Of a stretch of DNA of 42,622 bases, positions 2,846-33,342 are shown in pieces. The DNA is from Candidatus Gastranaerophilales bacterium (GTDB lineage: Bacteria; Cyanobacteriota; Vampirovibrionia; Gastranaerophilales; Gastranaerophilaceae), in the NCBI GenBank assembly GCA_944323045.1, contig CALUQX010000019.1:1-42622 (forward strand). The letters are read 5' to 3'. Positions within the stretch are counted from its first letter, which is position 1; the number at the start of each line of letters is the position of its first letter. The translations under genes and the position numbers were made by a program. Under the pieces are notes generated by a model. The model did no database searches, had not been told where the DNA came from, and saw only the letters and a list, made by a program, of their open reading frames with translations.

Positions 2846-3631
2846 ATGGAAAACAACAAAAACGTAGCAACCAAAACTAATTACATCAGATACCGCACAC
2901 ACTTTACTCACATACTCTCGTACAAAATCGCTTTCACCCTCGCAGAAACCCTAATTACGCTCGCAATAATCGGCATTGTTGCAGCAATGACAATCCCGGG
3001 AATTGTGCAGAAATATGAAGAAAAAGTAACTGTTGTGAAAGTTAAAAAAGTATATTCTCTACTGTCAAATGCACTACAATTAGCAGAATTTGAAAACGGC
3101 ACCTTCAATAATACTATTTCAGGGACAGTAAGTAAAAATTTCTATGACTATATATCACCATACTTAAAAATAGAAAAATATTGCGGCAGTAATGAAGGCT
3201 GCTGGGCTGATACAACGATTAAATTTTTACATGGAGCAGATTGGGAAAACATTAATACCTATAGAGCATATCAAAAAGCTGTTATGAATGACGGAATGCT
3301 GCTACAATTATTTACAAAAGATACCTTCGCTGTTTCAGGAGAAATACGTGTAGATATAAACGGTTATAAAAAGCCAAATACATTAGGAAAAGACATTTTT
3401 AAGTTTACAATTGATGGTAATAAGATTTTACCATATGGAATGGCATCTACAAATGAGGAAGAAACTTTTTCAACACACTGCAATTTAACATCTGAGAATA
3501 ACTATAATGGAGATGCGTGTACTGCATGGGTTATTTATAACGAAAATATGGATTACTTACACTGTAATGACTTAAGTTGGGATGGCAAAAAATCTTGCAA
3601 GCAAAAGGATTATGTGAACAGTGAACAGTGA
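2846..3631 (+). CDS. Type IV prepilin-like protein with Thr-His leader
   Basis: 261 residues from this start. The ATG at 2846 follows a GGAGG ribosome site by eight bases; a longer frame back to 2762 would run through the operator and is not used. The N-terminus is a leader with RTHFTHIL, then A/FTLAETLITLAIIGIVAAMTIPG, the prepilin transmembrane helix with Glu5. The C-terminal domain has four or more cysteines (YCGSNEGCW, HCN, ACTAW, SCKQ) that could form disulfides. It shares only the first 60 or so residues with the other prepilins here. Confidence 0.85.
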   Translation: MENNKNVATKTNYIRYRTHFTHILSYKIAFTLAETLITLAIIGIVAAMTIPGIVQKYEEKVTVVKVKKVYSLLSNALQLAEFENGTFNNTISGTVSKNFYDYISPYLKIEKYCGSNEGCWADTTIKFLHGADWENINTYRAYQKAVMNDGMLLQLFTKDTFAVSGEIRVDINGYKKPNTLGKDIFKFTIDGNKILPYGMASTNEEETFSTHCNLTSENNYNGDACTAWVIYNENMDYLHCNDLSWDGKKSCKQKDYVNSEQ

Positions 3632-3755
3632 ACTGTTGTTTTTGAAAAGACGTTAAGACGTTAAGACGATAAGTTCTTTAATAAGAGTTAACCAACGAGG
3701 AATGCCGCATTGGCTGTAATTTTTTAAAAGACGTTAAGACGTTAGGACGTGTCTT
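3612..3755 (+). repeat. GTGAACAGTGAAC / GACGTTAAGACGTTAGGACGT entry repeats
   Basis: Short tandem words that precede the GC-rich core element: GTGAACAGTGAAC overlapping the end of the prepilin gene, then GACGTTAAGACGTTAAGACG, and again GACGTTAAGACGTTAGGACGT just before 3756. The same words in the same order precede the cores at 6874 and 33013. Confidence 0.7.
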
Positions 3756-3997
3756 GGATTTGCCTGTCACATCGTTCGCGAATAACGAGTACGCTTACGC
3801 TTTAACTCTTCGCTCACTCGCTCTCCACGCTCACAGAGTTTCGCCTATTGTGCTTACGCACAAGCCGGCTCAATCCGTTCGCTATCCGGACTCGCTTCGC
3901 TGTCTTACTCGCCGGCGTTAAACGGGTCTGCAACGCCGCCGCCTTCGCGTCGCCGTTTCGCCCTCTGCCGGCTCGCGCTCCGTCCGTCCGCAAATCC
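3756..3997 (+). repeat. GC-rich mosaic repeat, family A, copy 1
   Basis: 242 bp bounded by GGATTTGC and its inverse GCAAATCC. Inside are TCCACGCTCAC and CGTTCGCTATCCGGA, shared with copies at 6874-6983, 9015-9117 and 33013-33228, and a TTGTGC-ttac-GCACAA hairpin. A block at about 3918-3967 matches the core of the family B element at 23993-24044, so one repeat is nested in another. A 74-codon reading frame across it (3848-4072) is incidental. This repeat block fills most of the 533-bp gap 3632-4164. Confidence 0.8.
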
Positions 3998-4002
3998 GCT
4001 AA

Positions 4003-6710: not shown

Positions 6711-6873
6711 TAAGAAATGCGGGCGATTTGAATTGTTCCGCTAAAAAGATAATGCATCCAGAGTCGGGCTTCAGCCCGACATCATGAATGGTGGGCACTT
6801 ATTCTGTGACCGGTGAACCGTAATCAGTGAACTGTTGTTTTGAAAAAGACGTTAAGACGTTAGGACGTGTCTT

Positions 6874-6983
6874 GGATTTGCTCCACGCTCACAGAGTTTC
6901 GCCTAAAAGCCTTGCGGCTTAGTCGGCTCAATCTGTTCGCTATCCGGATTTTTGCCTGCGGCACTCCATCCGTGCGCAAATCC
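6874..6983 (+). repeat. GC-rich mosaic repeat, family A, copy 2
   Basis: 110 bp between GGATTTGC and GCAAATCC, preceded by GTGAAC and GACGTTAAGACGTTAGGACGT words (from about 6826) and followed by GTTAATAAAATAAGGCAAC near 7003. The hairpin at the variable site is AAGCC-ttgc-GGCTT, unlike copy 1 but equally self-complementary. Confidence 0.8.
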
Positions 6984-7049
6984 GCTGAGACGTTAAGTCC
7001 GTTAATAAAATAAGGCAACACGGAATGCCACATTGACATTTTTTCATGT

Positions 7050-7166
7050 CCTCCCCTTGAGGGAGGACCGAAATCTCTGATTTCGAGGAGGGGGTAGGCA
7101 AAGCCTACTCTTATACTCTGGATGTCTGCTAAAGAAGAGTCGTAGGGTGCTGTCGTTTCGACGCAC
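7050..7166. repeat. Cluster of short hairpins
   Basis: Three adjacent inverted repeats: TCCTCCCCTTGAGGGAGGA, CGAAATCTCTGATTTCG and a GTAGGC/GCCTAC stem, then GTGCTGTCGTTTCGACGCAC. The last resembles GTGCGTCATTTCGACGCAC at 7994-8012. No gene is supported here. Confidence 0.5.
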
Positions 7167-8995: not shown

Positions 8996-9014
8996 TCACC
9001 TAATCACCTGTCTT

Positions 9015-9117
9015 GGATTTGCTCCACGCTCACGGAGACTCGCCTAAGGAGCGTTGCTCATGTCGGCTCGTTCCGTTCGCTATCCGGACTCGCTACGCTC
9101 CGTCCGTCCGCAAATCC
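9015..9117 (+). repeat. GC-rich mosaic repeat, family A, copy 3 (between inserted gene and groEL)
   Basis: 103 bp between GGATTTGC and GCAAATCC, the most compact copy. Variable-site hairpin GAGC-gtt-GCTC. Flanked by AATCACCT units at 8992-9008 and TAATCACTTAGTCACTT at 9119-9136. Confidence 0.8.
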
Positions 9118-9159
9118 GCTAATCACTTAGTCACTTGATTGCATAATTACAGTAGTTAG

Positions 9160-10821
<1,662 letters not shown>

Positions 10822-32807: not shown

Positions 32808-33012
32808 AATTTTCCTTTCCTGCGGACTACCTGTCCGCAATTGTGCATTCAGCACATTTAGTTATACACTTCTAATGTTCATTCTGATTATAACACAAAA
32901 ATGGGAAACAGTGAACAGGCGGACTAGTCCGTTTTTATATATTTGGCGCAGTTACCGGTGAACGGTTGTTTTGGAAAAGACGTTAAGACGTTAGGACGTT
33001 AGGACGTGTCTT

Positions 33013-33228
33013 GGATTTGCCTGTCGCATCGTTCGCGAATAACGAGTTCGCTTACGCTTTAACTCTTCGCTCACTCGCTCTCCACGCTCACGGAGACTCG
33101 CCTATTGTGCTTACGCACAAGCCGGCTCAATCCGTTCGCTATCCGGACTCGCTTATTTGCGTTGACTGCACTTCTTTAGCAGTCAACCAGAGTATAAAAG
33201 TGGACTTCGTCCACCCGTCCGCAAATCC
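33013..33228 (+). repeat. GC-rich mosaic repeat, family A, copy 4
   Basis: 216 bp between GGATTTGC and GCAAATCC, closest to copy 1 in its left half. The right half carries two extra nested hairpins, GTTGACTGC / GCAGTCAAC and GTGGAC / GTCCAC, absent from the other copies. GACGTTAAGACGTTAGGACGT units precede it (from about 32979) and GTTAATAAAAATCAGG follows. Reading frames across it are not genes. Confidence 0.8.
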
Positions 33229-33342
33229 GCTAAGTTCGTTAATAAAAATCAGGCTACGCCAACTTTTCCTCGCTCCTCCACCATGTCATCGCGCGGTGGG
33301 ATGACGGAGCGGAAGGGATTGCGCAACGAGAGTAGTAGGTTT

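Follow-up and report, generated by a model that had tools for sequence, protein, structure and literature searches.

The window, the whole of a 42,622-nucleotide contig that was analysed, belongs to a Gastranaerophilales metagenome-assembled genome (MAG; 1.98 Mb in 44 contigs). It contains four copies of a repeat, termed Family A, with ends GGATTTGC/GCAAATCC, as reported in an initial annotation of the sequence (Table 1). The real ends are slightly wider, with GTCTT on the 5' side of GGATTTGC and GC on the 3' side of GCAAATCC. Directly ahead of copy 3 and groEL is a gene for a 23S rRNA intervening-sequence protein (PF05635; 8642–8995). Copies 2 and 4 lie next to arrays similar to the GACGTTAR array of copy 1, and copy 3 next to CTAATCAC-type arrays. 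Short GTGAACAGTGAAC-type arrays (3614–3668, 6813–6867 and 32944–32998) lie beside GACGTTAR arrays and Family A copies, and several intergenic regions are thus islands of nested repeats. Most Family A copies have a GC fraction of 0.50–0.65 compared with 0.33–0.47 in the window, in agreement with the GC-richness noted previously.

Table 1. Family A copies and associated features of the window.
Feature	Coordinates	Strand	Remarks
GACGTTAR 8-nt direct array	3728..3750	+	Insertion place of copy 1
Family A copy 1, long form	3751..3999	+	GTCTT + P1...P1' + GC; GACGTTAR 8-nt array on left
Optional 60-nt left module, copy 1	3764..3823	+	Between P1 and conserved linker CTCCACGCTC
P4 hypervariable hairpin, copy 1	3848..3863	+	TTGTGC-TTAC-GCACAA; minus-strand loop GTAA
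Nested Family B element, 77 nt	3902..3978	+	Ends GTCTT...GC; P5 apical loop of copy 1
Family A copy 2, short form	6869..6985	+	In GACGTTAR array, upstream of ABC-transporter ATPase gene
P4 hairpin, copy 2	6907..6920	+	AAGCC-TTGC-GGCTT
Family A copy 3, canonical short form, 110 nt	9010..9119	+	Upstream of groEL-like gene at 9163
P4 hairpin, copy 3	9049..9059	+	GAGC-GTT-GCTC
Family A copy 4, long form	33008..33230	+	Left module + right module with two more hairpins; upstream of PNPase gene
60-nt left module, copy 4	33021..33080	+	

On the plus strand the layout of Family A is GTCTT-GGATTTGC-CTCCACGCTC-(arm I)-TTCGCTATC-(arm II)-GTCCGCAAATCC-GC, which gives a short form of about 110–111 nt. Long forms have a 60-nt left module, which copies 1 and 4 share with copies in other genomes (loci L025, L046, L053, L055 and L058), and several alternative right modules situated in the loop of arm II. 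RNAalifold, run on an alignment of 35 diverse copies with no structure supplied, folds the element as a three-way junction with helices P1 (GGATTTGC/GCAAATCC), P2–P3 (GC..ACAGA/TCTGT..GC), P3b (GCC/GGC), a hypervariable P4 and P5 (CGGAC/GTCCG). The initial annotation assigned a different hairpin to each copy at one site. The site, P4, is real, and the four copies carry three kinds of hairpin rather than four, with TTGTGC/GCACAA in copies 1 and 4, AAGCC/GGCTT in copy 2 and GAGC/GCTC in copy 3. The additional hairpins described for copy 4, GTTGACTGC/GCAGTCAAC and GTGGAC/GTCCAC, are present, and the stretch that contains them recurs reverse-complemented at 7092–7137, outside Family A, indicating that they derive from another dispersed repeat. 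The two occurrences of that repeat (7092–7137 and 33171–33216) have different complete hairpins at one place, TAGGC/GCCTA and GTGGAC/GTCCAC, respectively, a swap that resembles the behaviour of P4.

Compensatory double changes are found in 17 of 30–31 pairs among the 35 copies and in 22 of 30 pairs among 109 distinct copies, the latter in an alignment that is biased towards the model because it was fitted to it. Paired cells amount to 95–97%, against 27–44% when the partners are slid by 1–3 columns, and none of 500 shuffles reached the observed covariation. Pairing is thus kept despite sequence change, as originally proposed. Even P1 varies on both arms (GAAATTGC/GCAATTTC and GGATTTCC/GGAAATCC), and the most conserved columns are the unpaired linkers CTCCACGCTC and TTCGCTATCC. 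DNA folding z-scores were weak for two of the three single short copies tested.

BLAST located 46 matching pieces in the window's genome, and exact-pattern searches of the 1.98 Mb assembly gave 51 left and 59 right ends, the reversed control patterns giving no match; the working number for this genome is about 50–60 copies, most of them intergenic. The census was built on searches and on individual stretches of DNA. An exact 22-nt piece of Family A was found solely in Candidatus Gastranaerophilales MAGs of the genome collection. CM searches matched 124 of 191 genomes of the bacterial family, in 27 of 41 genera, with one to more than 20 copies per carrier and none in G002, a genome of the same genus as the window; two carriers outside the family were among those listed for an order-wide draw. 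Tandem copies separated by a single base occur in G090. No match came from the plasmid and phage records searched; the element is, however, present on two IMG/VR contigs. The open-access literature yielded no account of such repeats in Gastranaerophilales or Melainabacteria.

Comparison of occupied and empty sites defines the inserted unit. The site upstream of groEL is occupied in the window, whereas G003 has the same 8-nt array and flanks of about 91% identity with no element. Scanning joined flanks against the collected loci gave dozens of unoccupied sites, paralogous or orthologous. One occupied/empty pair is 98.6% identical over 358 nt and has one extra T when occupied; other pairs have no extra base. 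The unit is therefore [N]GTCTT...CCGC, N usually being T or C, with a net addition of 0–1 nt, and the occupied/empty pairs show no target-site duplication beyond one possible nucleotide. Identical exact ends are found in at least 46–62 distinct junction contexts, many of them at unrelated sites. Because insertion is exact, adds 0–1 nt and leaves no target duplication, Family A is a mobile element and more than a segmental duplication, although many copies share longer repeat islands. Plain segmental duplication, which had been named as the outcome that would overturn the original proposal, is excluded as the sole cause by these precise empty sites.

Insertions are also found outside intergenic regions. 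Two phage contigs carry Family A; in one of them the element is inserted in frame in the gene for the portal protein (L198 2777–2885 and L201), with a net difference of 37 codons, and a 74%-identical relative of this phage is without it. At L138 (1501–1610) it lies in frame between two ABC ATPase domains, within another repeat. In type IV pilin-like genes (L038, L048, L051, L006, L079, L081, L122, L063 and L027) the element and 8-nt arrays are in the N-terminal frame, placed just ahead of the FTLAEVLITL motif, and slippage of the 8-nt units there could toggle the gene on or off.

Two kinds of target are conspicuous among the junctions. In the genus of the window, 8-nt direct arrays (GACGTTAR, CTAATCAC, TTAGTGCC and TTATTCCC) hold many of the copies. 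In many genera the insertion point is TTCG^A, within the T-loop of a tRNA 3' end that has been duplicated. All 30 T-loop junctions have the minus strand as the tRNA-sense strand, and they involve tRNAs for Asp, Gly, Leu, Arg, Ile, Ser, Lys and others; among 46 non-redundant contexts, 12 are T-loops in this single orientation and none in the other. The order at these loci is an intact tRNA, a terminator, a short linker, a T-stem with TTCG, the element and a second tRNA 3' tail, and in many cases the linker complements the T-stem. Several tRNA genes are followed by one or two repeat units (L135, ∼1407–1650; L222, from 1212; L204, from 142; L216; L177, from 712; L051, from 3348), each of which ends with the 3' tail of that tRNA and holds Family A, B or C in its T-loop. 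At non-redundant junctions the minus strand favors purines only slightly. The idea that hairpin loops are preferred in general was considered and rejected, as stems at junctions are not longer than at flank controls (p = 0.18) and exceed only those of shuffled sequence.

At least two further families, B and C, fold differently but terminate as Family A does (minus strand, 5'-GC...AAGAC-3') and are found at the same tRNA sites. Family B has a conserved core, GCAGAGGGCG...GACCCGTTTAA, and P1 stems of wholly different sequence; Family C, in L177, contains GCGGATTTTGGC...GCCAATAATCCAAGAC. Family B is the 77-nt module of the Family A P5 loop, including that of copy 1 in the window, and also occurs alone at tRNA T-loops and elsewhere. 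The suggestion that palindromes grow inside palindromes is accordingly upheld in a specific form: the nested Family B has the same ends, so that the arrangement represents one independent element inserted into another.

G-U pairs are common in functional RNA. They account for 0.5% of Family A stem pairs when these are read as plus-strand RNA and for 1.3% when read as minus-strand RNA. The acceptor and T-stems of 29 tRNAs from the same loci contain 10.1% wobble and no A-C pair, so that wobble is about 8–20 times rarer in Family A (Fisher p = 1e-16 and 3e-24). The tolerance of wobble on one strand by which a structured RNA is recognized is lacking on both strands here, though covariation is present, and compensatory changes are almost all from one Watson–Crick pair to another. 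For this reason folding at the DNA level, or hairpin-templated correction of palindromes, is favored over selection on RNA. The initial annotation had left the choice between RNA and single-stranded DNA open; the evidence favors the DNA part of that proposal over the RNA part. On the plus strand A·C pairs outnumber G·T pairs (40 versus 16, p = 0.002; 29 versus 11, p = 0.006, in a set reduced at 90% identity), an asymmetry that involves few cells from related sequences. Hairpin loops read on the minus strand are mostly purine-rich and closed by C-G. Together these two features suggest, at modest strength, that it is the minus strand that folds. The lagging-strand bias expected of single-stranded DNA transposition is not evident, with about 20 of 33 neighboring copies co-oriented.

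No enzyme family searched for (Y1/RAYT, IS110 or reverse transcriptase) tracks Family A among the genomes searched. Gaps in MAGs are a serious caveat for such gene absences, since contigs often break at Family A copies. IS110 transposase was found in none of 14 carriers (G000, G001, G003–G006, G008, G010, G012–G014 and G017–G019). Y1 (PF01797) was not matched in carriers G001, G004, G012, G013, G014, G018 and G019, a result to which the same caveat applies, and RVT_1 gave no match in the copy-rich G000 and G001; the occurrence of Y1 and reverse transcriptase among carriers is patchy, and the window's genome is without a retron or reverse transcriptase. That genome has a single Y1 gene, which is RAYT-like (L031 1380–2030) and flanked by GGTGCGTCGTTTCGACGCACC-type palindromes, not by Family A, and no Family A copy lies within ∼1.5 kb of Y1 at the Y1 loci examined. 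A link to REP-type transposases is not borne out, as the lone gene has its own palindrome and several carriers have no Y1 match. Among the stretches read there was no large copy bearing these ends that might be an autonomous parent. Unpaired ends were examined in G000, G019 and G164. Those of G000 are cut off at contig ends, degenerate or joined onto other repeats; the end that recurs in G019 is a truncated Family A end joined to another repeat. In the G019 loci (L232–L238, L244 and L245) a 17-nt left-end piece is fused to about 100 nt of other sequence in similar contexts, and in L233 this fused repeat is just upstream of a pilin-like gene.

We favor, with moderate confidence, the reading of Family A as one of several families of protein-less mobile DNA with common ends, a non-autonomous element of about 111 nt that a trans-acting enzyme moves as folded DNA. 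The data show directly that the element is dispersed, that insertion is exact and duplicates no target, that a single orientation is taken relative to a recognized target and that the three-way junction is preserved. The mobile form would be the folded single minus strand. The enzyme, whether already present elsewhere in the cell or brought in by an incoming element, would recognize the unpaired linkers and the ends and would join the folded strand to the target as DNA. Selection for mobility would keep the fold while the stem sequences drift, and ordinary recombination adds copies by amplifying the repeat islands.

The main rival is correction of palindromes without selection, in which one arm templates the other during replication (quasipalindrome correction) and covariation is a by-product. 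Covariation by itself is no proof of selection, because such correction gives the same pattern of Watson–Crick-only changes. It accounts equally well for the wobble deficit, with hardly any wobble intermediates to be seen, and is in keeping with the wholesale replacement of the apical stem P4 and with the similar hairpin swap in the repeat at 7092–7137 and 33171–33216. We nevertheless consider it unlikely as the full explanation. The most conserved columns are the unpaired CTCCACGCTC and TTCGCTATCC, which we take as a sign of additional selection, and a passive process would not preserve one three-way junction through 27 genera. Spread mainly by recombination or segmental duplication of intergenic islands, together with the 8-nt arrays and other repeats, would explain the long flanks and neighboring repeats shared by several copies and the amplification of the truncated G019 end in similar contexts, at least one of them beside a pilin-like gene. 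The same exact ends in 46–62 distinct junction contexts, the occupied and empty states of single sites, which refute it as sole cause, and the copies in phages and at unrelated tRNA loci make this quite improbable as the principal route.

A structured RNA (small RNA, ribozyme or the RNA of a retro-element) that spreads through an RNA intermediate, like a bacterial SINE, seems less probable still. The covarying three-way junction, the GNRA tetraloops among the minus-strand loops, the tandem G·A between helices and the coincidence of the minus strand with the tRNA-sense strand in T-loop copies would all fit such an RNA, but wobble pairs are far below the level in the tRNAs of the same loci. Rfam has no gathering-threshold match in the window, and relatives give just sub-threshold matches at chance level. 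A retro-element in particular was rejected on the wobble deficit and on the results for G000 and G001, which are rich in copies and without an RVT_1 match. Movement as a miniature derivative of an IS110/IS1111-type element by the transposase of that element is highly improbable. Its attraction lies in a resemblance to IS110/IS1111 elements, which have subterminal inverted repeats, duplicate no target and enter hairpin or tRNA-like targets: the inverted repeats of Family A begin 5–6 nt and 2 nt in from the ends, insertion leaves no duplication and targets are directional. An IS110/IS1111 origin was rejected, as the transposase gene is missing from every carrier searched for it.

Compared with known systems, Family A differs from classical DDE MITEs in its subterminal inverted repeats and in having no target duplication beyond one possible nucleotide. 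It is like IS200/IS605-type non-autonomous elements in the lack of target duplication, the folded single strand that is probably involved and directional insertion, but it has no fixed tetranucleotide target, its two ends form a stem together and some carriers have no Y1 match. Lampson and Rice reportedly described msDNA-like repeats in Nannocystis exedens in 1997 (cited in PMC6868368); compared by description, these are likewise a folded DNA sequence dispersed in a bacterial chromosome, whereas the genome of the window has no retron or reverse transcriptase. With REP/BIME sequences the element has in common that it is a noncoding palindromic repeat of high copy number, probably acting as folded single-stranded DNA. 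RAYT genes are flanked by their own REPs, and GTAG repeats often have G-T stem pairs (PMC2817692, PMC3733652). In contrast, the RAYT-like gene here is beside a different palindrome and many carriers have none, and Family A ends in (T/C)GTCTT with no GTAG tag and almost no G-T pairs.

The closest published kind, judged by analogy, is that of the CGTC/TGTC-tagged palindromes and the Rickettsia palindromic elements (PMC3733652, PMC10969869). The CGTC-tagged palindromes, including Rickettsia RPE-4/RPE-6 and Neisseria dRS3, have no dedicated transposase and occur within genes; each is a single hairpin with an 8–9 bp stem that begins with complementary AT, a 4–5 nt loop, alternative complementary stem residues, an unpaired CGTC or TGTC tag at one end and a CCA tail (PMC3733652). 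Family A has a comparable left-end tag, (T/C)GTC followed by TT in nearly all copies, with a short unpaired tail opposite, and no dedicated adjoining transposase in the carriers examined. Unlike the single hairpin, it is a three-way junction of about 111 nt with a hypervariable arm, its first stem pairs are GG/CC and its tail is GC; compared by description, it further differs in having the same ends as differently folded families and in entering tRNA T-loops. It thus works like the CGTC/TGTC group and is not filed as a member, because the tag matches and the defining single-hairpin anatomy does not. Rickettsia palindromic elements, of ∼150 bp, are inserted in frame in genes (PMC10969869). Family A resembles them in size, in the existence of many families and in in-frame gene insertion; compared by description, it differs in being mostly intergenic in the window's genome, in sequence and in host phylum. 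We raise, as a tentative and rather doubtful possibility, that the GC...AAGAC families constitute a new class of transposase-less mobile DNA, served by one directional machinery that tracks no enzyme family searched, with the T-loop as a target and the tRNA kept intact by duplication of its 3' end.

How transposase-less palindromic repeats such as the CGTC repeats and the Rickettsia palindromic elements move is an open question (PMC3733652), for which Family A offers exact ends, dozens of occupied/empty pairs and a deep structural alignment. The wobble deficit is a sharp test and points to folded DNA as the unit that is kept in evolution. It also carries a general caution, in that strong covariation alone is insufficient to demonstrate a functional RNA; comparing the share of wobble pairs with that in tRNAs from the same genomes tells the two cases apart. 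The insertions in T-loops and the families with common ends make the hunt for a shared enzyme concrete.
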